Origin: Natrialba swarupiae
Lineage (GTDB): Archaea; Halobacteriota; Halobacteria; Halobacteriales; Natrialbaceae
Reading direction: 5' to 3'
DNA: 64,000 nt
Assembly (NCBI RefSeq): GCF_008245225.1
Contig: NZ_VTAW01000018.1
Location: 1 to 64,000, forward strand
How positions within the stretch are numbered: the stretch's first letter is position 1; each line of letters starts with the position of its first letter. Below the pieces are notes generated by a model. That model was not told where the DNA came from. It ran no database searches and saw only the letters and a program-made list of their open reading frames with translations. Made by a program: the position numbers and the translations under genes. Below, in pieces: positions 15,406 through 23,433 of this stretch.

Positions 15406-16053
15406 TCACCGGATTTCGATCGTCGTCCGGTCCGTCAGTCCGCGGTCCGCCGCGTCGTCGCGGGTAACCCCCGCCTCGATGGTGTAGGTGCCGGGACCGA
15501 CCGTCTCCCACTCACCGTCGTCGATTTTGAGCCGCTGGGGCCACCGTCGGTGGAACCGCTTGCGCTCGCCGCGGGCGAACGAGAACGTCGAGGGGCGCTC
15601 GGGGACGCCTCGAGGGATCGTCGAGGCCGCGTCGTGGCCGTCGACCGCCCAGCGCCAGACGTTCGGCGAGTCGGTCCGCAGACGGATCGGAACCGGGAGC
15701 GGGTTGCGGAACTCGACGGCGATCTCGACTCCGTCGCCGGGCGCGTAGCGGTCGCGGTCGGTCGAGACAGTCACCGAAATTGCCCGCGTCCGCATCGCTG
15801 TCGGGACGAACGCGTGGCTGAACGCCGCCCAGTCGACCGTCCGCGACCCTGACTCGTCCGCAGCGTTGGGGACGAACGGGTCGTCTTCCGAGCGCTCGAG
15901 CGCACGAGAGTCGTAGATCCGGCGCACCGAAACGGCGGTTCGCAGGCCGGGCTGAAATGGCCTCCGGTCTCCCGTCTCGTGGGGTCTGCCGTCGGTCAGT
16001 TCCGGCGCACTCGCGGCCCGAACGGCGGGTGTGCCGGGAGGTCGGCACAGCAA
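15406..16053 (-). CDS. BsuPI-like intracellular proteinase-inhibitor domain protein (start uncertain)
   Basis: The C-terminal ~130 residues look like the BsuPI/DUF7974-type beta-sandwich: VTVSTDRDRYAPGDGVEIAV, RLRTDSPNVWRWAVDG and WPQRLKIDDGEWETVGPGTY. The function in haloarchaea is unknown. The start is unclear. The open frame reaches a TTG at 16053 that lies in the terminus of an inverted repeat element, a GTG occurs at 15927 and the first ATG only at 15795. Residues resembling the family (SVRRIYDSRALERSEDDPF) lie upstream of that ATG, so the true start is probably near 15927 or earlier. The repeat may have displaced the native start. It follows oppF in the same direction. Confidence 0.6.
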   Translation of the reverse strand: MLCRPPGTPAVRAASAPELTDGRPHETGDRRPFQPGLRTAVSVRRIYDSRALERSEDDPFVPNAADESGSRTVDWAAFSHAFVPTAMRTRAISVTVSTDRDRYAPGDGVEIAVEFRNPLPVPIRLRTDSPNVWRWAVDGHDAASTIPRGVPERPSTFSFARGERKRFHRRWPQRLKIDDGEWETVGPGTYTIEAGVTRDDAADRGLTDRTTIEIR

Positions 16054-16062
16054 TCCGCCTCA
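15974..16062. repeat. Stop-codon-anchored inverted repeat, copy 3 (class A, diverged)
   Basis: The right terminus CAGCAATCCGCCTCA includes the TCA that is the stop codon of the oppF-type gene on the minus strand. The inner stem pairs CCGGCGCACTCGC with GCGGGTGTGCCGG, and the left part GTCGGTCAGTTCCGG matches GTAGATCAGTTCCGG of copy 7. It overlaps the 5' part of the open frame of the BsuPI-like gene. Confidence 0.72.
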
Positions 16063-17382
16063 CTCGCGGGTGGCCCGATCGTAAAACCGGTGGCAGGCGA
16101 TTCGGTGGCGAGCGTCGCCGGAATCGTCGACCACCTGGGGATCCGGTCGGTCCGTTTCACACGGCGACTCGAACGTCCGACTGAGACGCGACCGCGCTCG
16201 CTCGGCGTCGCCAGCCGCGAGCGCCTCGAGTGCTTCAGTGAGCGCCGCCTCCGCGTCCTCGTCGGTCAGCGTCCGCGGAATCCCGTAGGCGTCTTTGATC
16301 GCGCCGGCCGTGAAGGTCGAGTCGGCGTCGATCGCCGTGGCGTTTGTCGCGCCAGCCGGCGGCCAGCGAAGCGCCTCGCGGGGATCGCCGCCGTCGGCGA
16401 CGGCATCCGCGAGGTCGAGGCGCAAGTCCATCACGCCGCGAAACACTTCGCACTCGAGGTCGTACGCCGAAGGCGGGATCACCTTCGGACAGCGGGTGTG
16501 GAACTGACAGCCCGACGGCGGATCGATCGCCGACGGCACGTCTCCTTCGAGGACGATCCGGTCGCCCTCCCAGCACGGGTCCGGTTCGGGGATCGCCGAC
16601 AACAACGCCTCGGTGTAGGGGTGGGAGTCGCCCTCGAACAGCTGTGTCGGTGAGCCACGCTCGACGATCCGACCGAGGTACATCACCGCGATGCGGTCGG
16701 CGACGTGTTCGACGACGGAGAGGTCGTGGCTGACGAACAGATACGAGAGGCCGAACTCCGCCTGGAGCTCCGAAAGCAGGTTGAGAATTCGCGCCTGGAC
16801 GGAGACGTCGAGCGCCGTGACGGGTTCGTCGCAGACGAGAACCTCCGGTTCGACGGCGAGTGCACGTGCGATGGCGATCCGCTGGCACTGGCCGCCCGAG
16901 AACTCACGTGGGTAGCGGTTCGCGGCCGAGGGCTCGAGGCCGACCGTCTCGAGCAGGTCGGCGATCCGATCGTCGCGTCGATCCGGCGGGACGATATCGT
17001 GAACCGCGAGCGGTTCGCCGACGATGTCGCCGACCGGAAGCTGTGGGTTGAGGCTCGCGAGCGGATTCTGAAAGACGTACTGGACGTTCGTCCGCAGCTC
17101 CCGTCGCTCGCGCCGATCGAGCGTCGCGAGGTCTCGACCCCGGTAGACGACCGAGCCCGCGGACGGCTCGTCGAGGCCGACGAGGAGCCGCCCGAGCGTC
17201 GTCTTCCCACAGCCACTCTCACCGACGAGTCCCAGCGTCTCGCCCTCCGCGATCTCGAGGTCGACGCCGTCGACCGCGCGGATCGTCTCGCCGCGTCCGA
17301 GCAGCCGCTCGAGGAGCCCGTCACTCGTCGTAAACCGTTTCTCGAGGCCCTCGGCCCGGAGCAGCGGGTCGTCACCGGTCAT
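16060..17382 (-). CDS. Oligopeptide/dipeptide ABC transporter ATP-binding protein (OppF/DppF type)
   Basis: One of two cytoplasmic ATPases powering peptide import. ABC motifs: Walker A GESGCGKTTLGRLLVGLDEP, the Q-loop near QYVFQNPLASLNPQ, signature SGGQCQRIAIARAL, Walker B VLVCDEPVTALD and switch His in LFVSHDL. The C-terminal oligopeptide extension with CQFHTRCPKV follows, then an unusually long tail of roughly 110 residues with an acidic helical region (EAALTEALEALAAGDAERAR). The start codon overlaps the end of the preceding ATPase gene by 11 bases, so the genes are translationally coupled. Longer upstream readings run inside that gene and are not used. Confidence 0.92.
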   Translation of the reverse strand: MTGDDPLLRAEGLEKRFTTSDGLLERLLGRGETIRAVDGVDLEIAEGETLGLVGESGCGKTTLGRLLVGLDEPSAGSVVYRGRDLATLDRRERRELRTNVQYVFQNPLASLNPQLPVGDIVGEPLAVHDIVPPDRRDDRIADLLETVGLEPSAANRYPREFSGGQCQRIAIARALAVEPEVLVCDEPVTALDVSVQARILNLLSELQAEFGLSYLFVSHDLSVVEHVADRIAVMYLGRIVERGSPTQLFEGDSHPYTEALLSAIPEPDPCWEGDRIVLEGDVPSAIDPPSGCQFHTRCPKVIPPSAYDLECEVFRGVMDLRLDLADAVADGGDPREALRWPPAGATNATAIDADSTFTAGAIKDAYGIPRTLTDEDAEAALTEALEALAAGDAERARSRLSRTFESPCETDRPDPQVVDDSGDARHRIACHRFYDRATRE

Positions 17383-18469
17383 CGTGGCCCCTCCCGGAAC
17401 TTCCGCCGGGTGACGTCCCGCGGGTAGCGTCCGGCGAATCGTCGACGACCCGAACCGCGTAGCCGAGTCCGTCCTCGAGATCGCCGGTGTGTTCGTGGCA
17501 GGCGGCGACGTGATCCTGGCGGGTCGCATCCGCAGCGGTTCCGGTCTCGGTCTCGACGAGATCCGGTTCGCTGGTCGCACACACCTCCTCGGCGTACGGA
17601 CAGCGCGGGTGAAACCGACAGCCGGTCGGCGGCTGAATCGGGTTGGGCGGGCCGCCGGGGAGCGACGGGAGCCGCTCTCGATCCGCCCCGATTCGTGGAA
17701 TCGAGGCCAACAGTCCGGCGGTGTATGGGTGGGCGGGATCGTAGAACAGCTCCTCGACCGGAGCGCGTTCGACCGCGCGGCCGCCGTACATCACCAACAC
17801 GCGGTCACAACACTCCGCGACGACCCCGAGGTCGTGGGTCACGAGCTGAATCGCCGTCTCGAACGACGATGCGAGTTCCTCGAGCAACTCGAGCAGTTGG
17901 GCCTGGATCGTCACGTCGAGTCCGGTCGTCGGCTCGTCGAGGATCAACAGGTCCGGCTCACACGACAGCCCGACGGCGACGAGGACGCGTTGGGCGATTC
18001 CGCCGGAGAGTTCGTGTGGGTAATCGCTGTATCGCGACTGGGCGTCGGCGATCCCGACGCGCTCTAAGAGGGCGATCGCCCGCTCGCGGGCCTCGCGCCC
18101 GGACGCGACCTCGTGGGCGCGCATCGTCTCCACGATCTGCTCGCCGACAGTGTAGACCGGATCGAGCGCCGCTTGGGAGTCCTGGAAGACGATCGCGACG
18201 TCGTTTCCACGGAGCCGTCGGAGTTCCTCGCGGGGGAGTTCGAGGACGTTTCGACCACGAAACCGGACCTCGCCGTCGACGATCTCGCCGGGGCGACCGA
18301 CGAGGTCCAGAAGCGAGAGGCTGGCGACGCTCTTTCCAGCGCCGCTCTCGCCGACGATGGCGAACGTCTCGCCGGCCTCGATCTCGTAGCTGAGACCGTC
18401 GACCGCACGAACGACGCCGTCTTCCGTGTAAAACTGAACCGTCAGGTTCTCGACCTCGAGCAGCGCCAT
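17372..18469 (-). CDS. Oligopeptide/dipeptide ABC transporter ATP-binding protein (OppD/DppD type)
   Basis: Partner ATPase of the peptide importer (365 aa). Walker A is GESGAGKSVASLSLLDLVGR, signature SGGIAQRVLVAVGL, Walker B LLILDEPTTGLD and switch His in QLVTHDLGVV. The cysteine-bearing CRFHPRCPYAEEVC of the oligopeptide-type C-terminal extension follows. The ATG at 18469 overlaps the permease stop by one base (TGATG) and begins the homologous region MALLEVENLTVQF. Confidence 0.94.
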   Translation of the reverse strand: MALLEVENLTVQFYTEDGVVRAVDGLSYEIEAGETFAIVGESGAGKSVASLSLLDLVGRPGEIVDGEVRFRGRNVLELPREELRRLRGNDVAIVFQDSQAALDPVYTVGEQIVETMRAHEVASGREARERAIALLERVGIADAQSRYSDYPHELSGGIAQRVLVAVGLSCEPDLLILDEPTTGLDVTIQAQLLELLEELASSFETAIQLVTHDLGVVAECCDRVLVMYGGRAVERAPVEELFYDPAHPYTAGLLASIPRIGADRERLPSLPGGPPNPIQPPTGCRFHPRCPYAEEVCATSEPDLVETETGTAADATRQDHVAACHEHTGDLEDGLGYAVRVVDDSPDATRGTSPGGSSGRGHDDR

Positions 18470-19608
18470 CACCGACCCCTCCGTTCGCGTCCGTCTCGCG
18501 AGCCGAGCGCGTCGGTGAGTCCGTCTCCGACGAGGTTGATCGCCAGCACGAACAGGAAGATCGCCGCGCCGGGGAAGACCGTGACGTGCCAGTTTCCACG
18601 GAGCAGCGCCGACCGGCCCTGGGCGAGCATCGCCCCCCACTCGGCGGTTCCCGGCTCGAGACCGAGACCGAGGAAGCCAAGCGCCGCGGCCGCGGTGACG
18701 ACCGAGCCGACGTTGAGCGTCGCCTGGACGATCACCGGCGCGACGGCGTTGGGGACGACGTGGCGCGCGAGTATCGTCCGATGGGGCGTGCCGAGCGCCC
18801 TCGAGGCGGCGACGTAGTCGGTCTCGACGATCGAGAGCACCTCGCCGCGAAGCAGCCGAGCGTAGGTGAGCCAGCCGGTGACGACGAGCGCGAAGACGAC
18901 GTTCCAGTACCCCTGCCCCACGATCGCGACGATGGCGATCGCGAGGACGAGAAACGGGAACGCGTACAGCATATCCACGATCCGCATGATCGCCTCGTCG
19001 AGCCAGCCGCCGACGTAGCCCGCGATCGCGCCGAGTGGGATGCCGACACACAGCGCGAGGGCGACGGCCAGCGCACCGATGCTCAGGCTGTACCGCCCGC
19101 CGACGAGGACCCGGGAGAACAGGTCCCGACCCGCCCAGTCGGTCCCGAAGGGATGGGCCAGCGAGGGGCCGGCGTTCGGCGGCCCGACGGACAGCTCGTT
19201 CGGATCGTACGGCGCGAGTGAGAACGGCTGGAGCGTGATCGTATACCCCATCGTGGAGAACTCGACGGGACGGGCGACGATCGCGACCGCCGACAGGACC
19301 GCGACGATCGCGAGCCCGAACAGCGCCGTCCGGTTCGACCGAAACCGACGCCAGCTCTCCTCGAGCCGGCTCCGACTGTGGACGGTTCGCGCGCTGGTAC
19401 CGTCTCGAGGCGTCAGCGTCGACCGACCGGTGGACGCCGAGGTGGCCGACGGCCTGGTGTTCGCCGCGGCCATCTGGCGATCGGACGCGTCCCGGTGGTC
19501 CCCGGGCCGGTCGGCGTCGGTCCGATCACCGTCTGCTCGGTCAGACGACAGGTGCTCCTCGAGGCCGTCGATTCTGATGCGCCCTCGTCGTGTCGTTTGC
19601 TCGTTCAT
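18469..19608 (-). CDS. Oligopeptide/dipeptide ABC transporter permease (OppC/DppC type)
   Basis: Second inner-membrane subunit of the peptide importer (379 aa). A long charged N-terminal cytoplasmic region of about 95 residues precedes the first membrane helix (FGLAIVAVLSAVAIVA). The binding-protein-dependent transport domain then has GGRYSLSIGALAVALALCVG, five further hydrophobic segments and the coupling loop YVAASRALGTPHRTILARHV. HPFGTDWAGRDLFSRVLVG is typical of the OppC class. The start overlaps the OppB stop by four bases. Confidence 0.93.
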   Translation of the reverse strand: MNEQTTRRGRIRIDGLEEHLSSDRADGDRTDADRPGDHRDASDRQMAAANTRPSATSASTGRSTLTPRDGTSARTVHSRSRLEESWRRFRSNRTALFGLAIVAVLSAVAIVARPVEFSTMGYTITLQPFSLAPYDPNELSVGPPNAGPSLAHPFGTDWAGRDLFSRVLVGGRYSLSIGALAVALALCVGIPLGAIAGYVGGWLDEAIMRIVDMLYAFPFLVLAIAIVAIVGQGYWNVVFALVVTGWLTYARLLRGEVLSIVETDYVAASRALGTPHRTILARHVVPNAVAPVIVQATLNVGSVVTAAAALGFLGLGLEPGTAEWGAMLAQGRSALLRGNWHVTVFPGAAIFLFVLAINLVGDGLTDALGSRDGRERRGR

Positions 19609-20558
19609 CGGTCGTGTCGAATTCGTGGGTCGATGATCGCGTAGGCGACGTCGACGAGCAGGTTCGCCGCGACCGTCGCGACCGCGATGAGCAACACGCT
19701 CGCCTGGACGACCGAAACGTCCCGCCGGCCGATCGATTCGACGAGCAACTGTCCCATCCCGGGCCAGGAGAAGACGTGCTCGACGACCACCGCGCCGTCG
19801 ACGAGAAACGCGATCTGGAGGCCCGCAACCGTCACGACCGCCGTCGAGGCGTTTCGGAGAACGTGTTTCAGGATCACCGTCCGCTCGCGAAGCCCCCTGG
19901 CTCGAGCGGCCCGGACGTACTCCCGGTCGAGTTCGCGACGCATCGACGAGCGCATCAGTCGGGTGACGATGGCGGCCAGTGCAGTCGCGAGCGTGACGGT
20001 CGGCAAGATCACGAACCACGCCATCTCGAGGCTCACGAGCGGTGCGTCGGGCGGGGTAACTCGAACCCAGCCGAGGTGGACCGCGAAGACGAACAGGAGG
20101 ACGAGTCCGAGCCAGAAGTTCGGCGTGGCGATACCGACGAGCGCGGCGATTCGACTGGCCTCGTCCGCCGGTTGCCCCTGTTTGATCGCGGCGAGGATCC
20201 CGAGTGGAACGCCGATCGCGAGCGACAGTGTCCACGAGGCGACGCCCAGTGCGACCGTGTGCGGGAGGCGACTCGCGACGGTCTCGCCGACGTCGCGGCC
20301 GGTGATCGGCGACTCGCCGAACTCGAAGGTGACGACGTCACCGAGCCACAGCAGGTACTGCTGCCAGAGCGGGCGATCGAGGTTGTACTCGGCCCGAAGT
20401 GCGGCCCGAGTTTCCGGATCGACGTGGTCGAAGCCGACGAGCACGTCGACCGGGTCCCCCGGCGTGAGATAGACGAACGAAAACGTGATCGCCGTCGCAC
20501 CGAGCAGTACCGGGACGGCCGTCAGCGCGCGTCTGAGTGTGTATCGGATGATCGACAT
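19605..20558 (-). CDS. Oligopeptide/dipeptide ABC transporter permease (OppB/DppB type)
   Basis: First membrane subunit of the importer (317 aa). It starts YTLRRALTAVPVLLGATAIT, the usual OppB signal-anchor helix, then FVYLTPGDPVD and the large extracytoplasmic loop. The coupling helix is EYVRAARARGLRERTVILKH, and the C-terminal part contains WPGMGQLLVESIGRRDV. The start at 20558 fits the family; the longer upstream frame is intergenic. About 250 bp separate it from the binding-protein gene, including a degenerate repeat element. Confidence 0.94.
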   Translation of the reverse strand: MSIIRYTLRRALTAVPVLLGATAITFSFVYLTPGDPVDVLVGFDHVDPETRAALRAEYNLDRPLWQQYLLWLGDVVTFEFGESPITGRDVGETVASRLPHTVALGVASWTLSLAIGVPLGILAAIKQGQPADEASRIAALVGIATPNFWLGLVLLFVFAVHLGWVRVTPPDAPLVSLEMAWFVILPTVTLATALAAIVTRLMRSSMRRELDREYVRAARARGLRERTVILKHVLRNASTAVVTVAGLQIAFLVDGAVVVEHVFSWPGMGQLLVESIGRRDVSVVQASVLLIAVATVAANLLVDVAYAIIDPRIRHDR

Positions 20559-20807: not shown

Positions 20808-22427
20808 CTATCGATCGGGATCGAGGCTGTCGACGGCGAACTCCTCGAGAAGCGGCGGAATCGGCGTGTACGCGACGGCACCCACTCCAGCGTAGACGTC
20901 TTCGACAATCGTCTCGCGGGGAATCAACCGGTCGATGCCGCGGCGAACGTCGGCGTTCGTAAACGGCTCGAGGTATGCCGGGTAGACGAGAAAGTCGATC
21001 GCTCCGGCGGCGGATCGCTCGACGCAGTACGCCGATTGGGTCTCGAGGTCGGTGACGTCCGCCGCTGAAATCTGGGTCGCCAGATCGAGCTCTCCGGCCT
21101 CGATCGCGGCGCGTCTGGACGCCGGGTCGGGGACGATCCGCATGGTGATCGTCTCGACCGGTGGGCGCTCGGGGACGGATTCGTCGCCGTCGAACCAGTG
21201 GCCGTCGAACCGGCGGAGTCGCCAGTACTCGCCGTCAGCGTACTCGTCGAACCGGTACGGACCGGTTCCGGTGGGCTCCTCGCTCAGATCGAGCGCCCCC
21301 TCGCTCGCAGCCAGCGGAACGATCGGGACGCCGACGCTCACCTCGAACGGGCCGTACTCCCGTTCGAGGTGAATCTCGAGTTCCGTCTCGTCGATGACGA
21401 CAGTGTCCTCGTACCAGTCGTAGACGTCCGTTTCCCGGGGAGTCCCCGCGTAGCGCTCGAACGTCGCGCGGACGTGGTCGGCGGTGAGCGTTTCACCGTT
21501 GTGAAACGCGACGTCTCCTCTGAGTTCGAACCGATACGTCGTCGGATCGAGTTGCTCCCAGTCGGTCGCGAGCGAGGGCCGTACCGCCCCCTCGAAGTCC
21601 ACCGCGAGCAGCCCCTCGTAGATCGGCGTCGTCGCCATGTTCGAGGTCGTGTCGTTCATCCGTACCGGATCCGGGTTCGAGACCGTCGCGGGGAGGTCGA
21701 CGACGAGCTCCGCACCGTCCTCCGACTCGAGAAACTCTCGGCCGTACGGTGTGTACACCGCATCGTACTCGCTGCCGGGTAACGGGTACTGACGCCAGTC
21801 GTCGATGGCGTCACACCGGTAGATCGCCGTCTCCTCGCCGGATCGAACGATCGATATCGGCACCTGTCTCGCGAGTCGTTCCTGCAGTTCTCGGTAGATG
21901 TCGGCTCGTCGCTCCGGGTCGCTCTCGGCGAGGCCGGAATCGATCAGTTCGTCGGTCCGATCGTCGGTGTAGTGATTGAAGTTGAAGCCGTTTGGCGACC
22001 GGCGGTCCGAGTGAAAGAGCGAGTTGACGTACGTGTGAGGATCCCAGCCACCGCTGATGTCGAGGGTCACGAGCGCGTTCTCCGCGTTGTCTGCCATATT
22101 CAGACACAACTGCTCGTAGCTCCCCCACTCGAGTTGTTCGAAGTCGACGTCGAACAGCCCCGTCTCGTTCAGTTCGTGTTGGACGAGTTGCGCCCAGCGG
22201 CTCCGCTCGCCGTTCTCCGCGTTCGCGTAGATCGTCGTCTCGAACGGCGCGTCAACTCCTGTCGCCTCGAACCCGCGCTGGATCAGCTCTGTCGGGCCAC
22301 TCTCCGAAATCCGGTCGTCACGTTCGGCGGTGATACACCCCGACAGCCCGATCGTCCCCACCGCACCGAGTCCACGTAGAATCGTTCGTCGTCCAACCCG
22401 TTCGTCGAACCCCTTCCGACAGCCCAT
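20808..22427 (-). CDS. Peptide ABC transporter substrate-binding lipoprotein, circularly permuted family-5 SBP
   Basis: Surface lipoprotein that should capture peptides for the adjacent importer. The N-terminus has a twin-arginine signal and lipobox (GRRTILRGLGAVGTIGLSGC). The domain order is unusual. Residues ~45-205 contain what is normally the C-terminal part of OppA/DppA (WAQLVQHELNETGLFDVDFE, EWGSYEQLC, WDPHTYVNSLF, ELIDSGLAESDPERRADIYR). Residues ~212-539 then contain the normal N-terminal part (TPIYEGLLAVDF, PTTYRFELRGDVAFHNGETL) and the protein ends at NADVRRGIDRLIPRETIVED plus PIPPLLEEF, which normally lie in the middle. The frame is single and uninterrupted. Genes for both permeases and ATPases follow. 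Confidence 0.88.
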   Translation of the reverse strand: MGCRKGFDERVGRRTILRGLGAVGTIGLSGCITAERDDRISESGPTELIQRGFEATGVDAPFETTIYANAENGERSRWAQLVQHELNETGLFDVDFEQLEWGSYEQLCLNMADNAENALVTLDISGGWDPHTYVNSLFHSDRRSPNGFNFNHYTDDRTDELIDSGLAESDPERRADIYRELQERLARQVPISIVRSGEETAIYRCDAIDDWRQYPLPGSEYDAVYTPYGREFLESEDGAELVVDLPATVSNPDPVRMNDTTSNMATTPIYEGLLAVDFEGAVRPSLATDWEQLDPTTYRFELRGDVAFHNGETLTADHVRATFERYAGTPRETDVYDWYEDTVVIDETELEIHLEREYGPFEVSVGVPIVPLAASEGALDLSEEPTGTGPYRFDEYADGEYWRLRRFDGHWFDGDESVPERPPVETITMRIVPDPASRRAAIEAGELDLATQISAADVTDLETQSAYCVERSAAGAIDFLVYPAYLEPFTNADVRRGIDRLIPRETIVEDVYAGVGAVAYTPIPPLLEEFAVDSLDPDR

Positions 22428-22605: not shown

Positions 22606-22714
22606 GAACTGGCACAGACCGTCTCAGACGGTTTACTGTACGTCGGTGCCGCCGCTCCCGGGACTCGTTCTCCGGAAGTGTCGGGACACAGGTGCAGCAA
22701 TCCGTTCCGTCTCA
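22606..22714. repeat. Stop-codon-anchored inverted repeat, copy 5 (class B)
   Basis: The main element runs from CAGACGGTTTACTGTACG at 22625 to GCAGCAATCCGTTCCGTCTCA at 22714; the final TCA is the stop of hpt on the minus strand. A separate right-terminus-like piece (GGCACAGACCGTCTCA, ending 22626) abuts it on the left, so a second element may once have been adjacent. The inner sequence resembles copy 7 rather than the class A stems. Confidence 0.78.
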
Positions 22715-23281
22715 GCTGTCGCCGTCCTCGTCGACGATCACGACCTCGCCGTCGACGACGTCGACGTTGATCAGCGTCTTGACGTTGTAGCCCGCGTCGT
22801 CGACTTTGTTCTCGCCACCGACTTTCTTGATGACTGCCACCGTGTCGACGACTTCGGCACCGATCTCCTCGAGGGCCTCGAGCACCGACGCGAGCGTGCC
22901 ACCGGTCGAGAGCACGTCGTCGAGAACGAGCACGCGCTCGCCCTCGCGGACGTCGTTGATGTACATCTCGTTCTCCGAGTAGCCCGTCTGCTGGGCGATG
23001 GCGACCTCTCCCTCGAGGCCGTACTCGCGTTTGCGGATGACCGTAAGCGGGATGTCGGTCATCAGCGAGACCGCAGTCGAGATGTGGATCCCCATCGCCG
23101 CCGGCGTGACGATCCGGTCGACCTCCTCGAGTCTCGCCTTGCGGATGATCCGGATGACGATCTCGCGCAACAGCGTCGGATCCAGCTTCGGGACGCCGTC
23201 GCTGATCGGGTGGACGAAGTAGTGGTAACCGTTTTTCTCGATGATTGGGGCCTCGAGAAGCGATCGCTTCAACTGATCCAT
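22712..23281 (-). CDS. hpt: Hypoxanthine/guanine phosphoribosyltransferase, archaeal type
   Basis: Purine salvage enzyme joining PRPP to hypoxanthine or guanine. The 189 residues have the archaeal HGPRTase/APRT-like fold. The PRPP loop is [20 protein letters not shown], and [20 protein letters not shown] is the first substrate motif. ATG at 23281 ([19 protein letters not shown]) matches the family start; an upstream extension has no support. The stop codon lies in the terminus of a repeat element. Confidence 0.9.
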
Positions 23282-23433
23282 GTCGTGGGTCGGTGGGTAT
23301 CGGAGTAAAATGTGACGATCCGATCGCACCGCGGGCGCGATCGGTCCATGCTGGTCGGAGCTGGTGTACGGAGCGACCGGCGAAATCACAGGTTTCCCGT
23401 GATTTCACCGACAACGAGTCACGACGGCCTCGA

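Follow-up and report, generated by a model that had tools for sequence, protein, structure and literature searches.

The 64,000-nucleotide stretch of Natrialba swarupiae DNA analyzed here (contig NZ_VTAW01000018.1, hereafter the window) carries, at the head of an operon, a gene for a substrate-binding protein of 539 amino acids. Based on Pfam matches, the operon also encodes two permeases and two oligo_HPY ATPases and is of the dppBCDF type (table 1). A sequence-only reading had described the gene as one uninterrupted frame leading an importer operon; both points held, the first by the 539-aa open reading frame and the second by Pfam analysis of the neighboring genes and synteny. Downstream of the importer ATPase, a gene without any Pfam match (window 15406–16056, minus strand) is kept in the relatives of this operon.

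Table 1. Features of the binding protein gene and its neighbors in the window
Feature	Position	Strand	Evidence
Circularly permuted family-5 substrate-binding protein, 539 aa (very likely)	20808..22427, stop included	-	phmmer, Pfam, AlphaFold
Residues 1–31: twin-arginine signal and lipobox (GRRTIL ... LSGC)	22335..22427	-	sequence; alignment
Residues 42–205: normally last segment (DppA 325–485), first here	21813..22304	-	phmmer, structural alignment
Residues 206–238: new internal junction, old C-terminus to old N-terminus	21714..21812	-	comparison with L130 termini
Residues 239–539: normally first segment (DppA 1–325), last here, ending just past TPIPPLLEEF	20811..21713	-	phmmer, structural alignment, L130
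DppB/OppB-type permease	19605..20558	-	Pfam BPD_transp_1
DppC/OppC-type permease (start codon not settled)	18469..19551	-	Pfam BPD_transp_1, OppC_N
DppD-type ATPase (start not settled)	17372..18460	-	Pfam ABC_tran, oligo_HPY
DppF-type ATPase (start not settled)	16060..17379	-	Pfam ABC_tran, oligo_HPY
Phosphoribosyltransferase, conserved upstream neighbor	22712..23389	-	Pfam Pribosyltran

The order of segments in this protein is swapped: residues 237–539 correspond to the part that comes first in known proteins (~325 residues), and the remainder of those proteins is matched by residues 42–205. Using phmmer, we found that residues 236–525 match residues 41–331 of the 5u4o chain and residues 57–187 match residues 358–482, both significantly and in swapped order. 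The same picture was observed with 3m8u and 1uqw, although the second stretch was weak in 1uqw. The Pfam SBP_bac_5 profile (PF00496) scored 192.6 bits in two stretches against the native sequence, and when the halves were reordered to the canonical arrangement (for analysis only) it gave 193.3 bits in one continuous match covering profile positions 2–365 of 368. By this near-whole match the protein belongs to SBP_bac_5, but it lacks the canonical segment order with the N-lobe first. No full-length match in normal order was found for it, either by phmmer against PDB chains or with SBP_bac_5. Sequence and structure comparisons both rank family-5 Cluster C proteins as its best matches; the sequence family speaks against a Type I/Cluster B fold, though missing Cluster B rows would not by themselves rule that fold out.

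R13, R14, G30, and C31 are invariant in a 39-row alignment, and Cys31 would be the start of the mature lipoprotein, as inferred from sequence alone. The mature protein begins at an AxxLLxxG helix, which places the cut inside the C-lobe, after the PIPP strand and before this helix, rather than between the two lobes. The sequence-only reading, which had the normally last block first and the N-lobe segment last, was thus supported by phmmer and by the two swapped SBP_bac_5 segments, and the lipoprotein signal it saw in front and the end just after PIPPLLEEF held by sequence. Its break point, between the PIPP segment and the C-terminal lobe, had to be corrected to a position inside the C-lobe, just before the first peripheral helix of that lobe.

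An AlphaFold model of the whole chain, built with 39 aligned sequences, predicted a compact single fold (pLDDT 88.9, pTM 0.85), in which low pLDDT was confined to residues 1–41 (signal and tether). When the front segment was modeled alone, confidence fell to pLDDT 73 and pTM 0.59; residues 198–240 were mostly above 90 in the whole chain and mostly below 50 with the front part alone. VIA-align placed residues 239–539 of the full model on residues 1–325 of DppA (1dpp; Z about 24) and the front fragment model on 1dpp 325–485 (Z about 11). These ranges complement each other and share a boundary at residue 325 of DppA, within the C-lobe; this, together with the poor model of the front part alone, suggests one fold closed by both parts rather than the two incomplete domains that would have refuted the permutation. 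The prediction is therefore an ordinary two-lobed Cluster C fold, and the protein is predicted to capture its ligand between the lobes and to dock on both permeases as DppA does, although no protein has been made or assayed.

Among the proteins sampled, the closest normal-order relative of both halves is L130, from a different haloarchaeal family (genome G186), which is 51% identical to the window protein over 297 residues and 38% over 183, well ahead of every other sampled normal-order protein for both halves. Its segments stand in normal order, in contrast to those of the window protein, and its gene precedes orthologous dppBCDF genes with a shared DppB-C-D-F-downstream gene order. Across the cut, L130 reads unbroken (...ISPLLGDYSSESFQAEMREEHQGYDPEQARELLASGFDALG... 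/ ...PISPLLGDYSSESFQAEMREEHQGYDPEQARELLASGFDALG...); the C-terminal end of the window protein and of its relatives lies inside the first part of this sequence, and their mature start coincides with the second. The termini of L130 that were compared at the new junction are ...FRTYPLDTGEFTAIYAPWADTYTTMGGG (C-terminal) and GPELVATLGADV (N-terminal).

The same permuted protein was detected in about 43 of 125 Natrialbaceae genomes, in the same order over ~520 residues and with 43–72% identity. Most of the 20 loci that were read have the order CoaBC, DUF7344, phosphoribosyltransferase, binding protein, DppB, DppC, DppD, DppF, and a small gene, and the upstream phosphoribosyltransferase is 80–92% identical in 18 loci. 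The dN/dS values between orthologs of the window type (designated type B) are 0.06–0.29, indicating that the permuted protein is maintained by purifying selection. The swapped order, its conservation, the purifying selection, and the operon are thus shown. It is very likely that the gene encodes a working, lipid-anchored family-5 (SBP_bac_5) binding protein with a circularly permuted chain in a Dpp/Opp-type ABC importer; this last reading comes without a protein having been made or assayed. In one genome the type B ortholog (G076:C5:155008-156550, L059) occupies two ORFs, covering residues 9–205 and 220–533 and separated near the new junction, probably owing to a frameshift.

The locus of the window is held in other genera by a ~650-aa family, whose members are in normal order in G021, G096, and G119 and permuted in G107, G020, and G103. 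G021 and G020 are members of a single genus, and in G096 the neighbors are kept while the transporter genes are inverted. Three states are therefore present at one chromosomal locus: the window's form, a normal form, and an independently permuted form. Relative to the window protein, members of the ~650-aa family (L153, L163, and L162) have extra residues in the N-lobe segment.

To call segment order for each ORF, separate HMMs were built for the two segments from normal-order paralogs. The survey of haloarchaeal homologs revealed that the permutation is neither unique nor single but recurs in the family. Three more permuted paralogs (contigs C42, C37, and C91) are present in the same genome as the window; in these, designated type A, the cut falls after the helix, whereas in type B it falls before it, and all cuts fall within about 30 residues. 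A profile of permuted proteins spans its full length only in permuted proteins. At E <= 1e-75 it matched 280 of 391 haloarchaeal genomes (roughly 70%) and 74 of 86 genera, a count which is approximate, as a few normal proteins near type B, such as L130, also pass this threshold. Annotation or structure comparison that assumes domain order would miss or split such proteins, though they are present in most haloarchaeal genomes.

Full-span permuted proteins were also found in family f15 of the same archaeal phylum and on alphaproteobacterial plasmids, several of them with complete importer operons; the bacterial survey covered plasmids only. Six alphaproteobacterial replicons carry seven genes matched nearly whole, and matches were otherwise partial. 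In genus g10, a second permuted binding protein, of type A (L074:30-1808), is located ~6 kb away from the type B importer, and full-span matches similar to it occur in G023, G024, G026, G027, and G028. The permuted binding protein of an f15 genome (L122:4733-6496, minus strand) has the C-terminal end TPGFGVIAVIAGVMAATYLLRRRR, which resembles a PGF-CTERM-type anchor and is preceded by a threonine/proline/glutamate-rich stretch. The alphaproteobacterial permuted importers L105, L143, and L144 lie beside genes for hydantoinase/oxoprolinase, M20 and M28 peptidases, or gamma-glutamylcyclotransferase, which hints at 5-oxoproline or gamma-glutamyl compounds as possible substrates.

To estimate the number of origins, the two segments were aligned separately and joined in canonical order before trees were built. 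Type B groups with normal-order proteins in a clade of strong support. A careful tree was built for this clade; in it, the ~650-aa family comprises 7 normal and 13 permuted members, and the permuted ones are nested among normal rows with the normal protein L187 as sister (support 93/96). A single origin of type B was not rejected by the AU test (P = 0.16). Monophyly was rejected for type B plus the ~650-aa permutants (P = 1e-4), for all permuted rows taken together (P = 2e-5, 43-row set), for main type A plus type B in a larger set (P = 2e-8), and for main type A plus the f15 forms (P = 0.005). These groups were named only after the trees had been seen, and the larger-set test relied on a quick tree. 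The rejections imply at least three permutation events, probably four. It is likely, then, that permutation is recurrent in family-5 proteins, having arisen independently three times or more (probably four) in haloarchaea and in another archaeal lineage, with the chain opened each time in the same short C-lobe stretch and with one of the haloarchaeal events shared by alphaproteobacteria, and that normal, window-type, and independently permuted states coexist at one orthologous Natrialbaceae operon.

In the mechanism we propose, the old termini, both on the N-lobe side of the fold, are connected through a short linker, and the C-lobe has been opened to give new termini, after the PIPP segment and ahead of the next helix. 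Each permutation most likely arose by in-place gene duplication followed by trimming, an inference from the usual route to permutation; fission–fusion is also a recognized model (PMC3320104). No duplicated intermediate, with the C-segment on both sides of the N-segment, was detected in 179 ORFs, and a search for relics of removed halves in the flanking intergenic DNA revealed nothing above chance, so the duplication route is not shown. As a result of the permutation, the N-terminal lipid anchor would have shifted from the N-lobe to the C-lobe. By inference from the family, the ligand would be bound between the lobes and passed to the two permeases in the manner of a Venus flytrap (PMC12136057). 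In our reading, the permutation is tolerated and near-neutral rather than selected, again without any protein made or assayed.

Several other explanations may be considered. Two half-genes from different binding proteins might have been fused in reverse order by fission and fusion, producing a chimera rather than a permutation of one ancestor. The standing of fission–fusion as a model, the absence of a duplicated intermediate from the ORFs examined, and the fission-like split of the G076 ortholog near the junction are consistent with this idea. However, both halves are nearest to the same normal protein, L130, albeit by identity only, and the G076 split at the new junction looks like a frameshift; we consider a chimera very unlikely. 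A single ancient permutation behind all permuted proteins, with the normal relatives inside the trees as reversions, would fit the narrow range of the cuts, and change counts cannot separate gain from loss. It is nevertheless hardly tenable, because the AU test rejects one clade both for all permuted rows and for main type A with type B, the normal rows of the ~650-aa family surround its permuted ones with L187 as sister, and the cuts differ in lying before the helix in the window type and after it in the others. That the permuted gene is decaying or misassembled is suggested only by the broken ortholog in G076. This possibility is all but excluded by intact genes in about 43 independent genomes, the low dN/dS, and conserved synteny; assembly artifact and pseudogene were both rejected on the number of genomes with the permuted gene and dN/dS.

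The permutation could also be an adaptation which places the lipid anchor on the C-lobe, in line with the general suggestion of Brautigam and colleagues for Treponema MglB-2. The twin-arginine lipoprotein signal in at least 50 of 66 sampled permuted rows and the repeated origin at one spot agree with this view. On the other hand, the normal-order sisters L130, L153, and L163 are already N-terminally anchored lipoproteins, so that anchoring is not new, and a lipobox is absent from all six alphaproteobacterial permutants, so that anchoring is not required. Tethering thus neither requires nor explains the permutation, and an adaptive role for the anchor appears unlikely. Our data do not favor the proposed role of binding-protein permutation in membrane tethering, and we retain the near-neutral reading.

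The window protein shares with the family-5/Cluster C proteins (DppA, OppA, NikA, GsiB, and AppA; PF00496) the sequence family, the predicted two-lobed fold, and an operon with two permeases and two ATPases. It differs from them in being rotated, with the cut at about mature residue 325 of DppA; the PDB searches listed no family-5 chain with this order. In DppA, R383 and D436 form salt bridges with the dipeptide (PMC12136057). The window protein has no equivalents of these residues, both of which align to gaps (P0001). The name "oligopeptide-binding" given in the sequence-only reading is therefore unproven, "oligopeptide" being only a family name here. Saposin/swaposin, DNA methyltransferases, and other natural permutants (PMC3320104) were likewise permuted in nature, for which duplication is the standard model, but they are different proteins, and none of the 179 ORFs examined here was a duplicated intermediate.

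No account of permutation in a family-5 binding protein turned up in the open-access literature searched, and the one precedent belongs to another fold class. Tp0684/MglB-2 of Treponema pallidum is a permuted Type I/Cluster B glucose-binding protein ("Type Ic/Cluster Bc") which binds glucose and closes on it; its authors offered adaptation to tethering as one possibility (PMC4990184). Both it and the window protein are lipoproteins and natural permutations of an ABC-importer binding protein, and MglB-2 stays functional. MglB-2, however, is of Type I/Cluster B, judged from sequence family another fold class than that of the window protein, and is permuted in the N-lobe. It retains only 13% identity in the permuted part, which is possibly of foreign origin, whereas both halves of the window protein align clearly to one normal relative. 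It is rare for a natural permutant to have close unpermuted relatives in the same operon, and independent events at one locus offer a natural experiment on how permutation arises, whether ligand binding or docking is altered by it, and why the chain is preferentially cut in one segment. In contrast to MglB-2, several independent events are seen for family-5 proteins.
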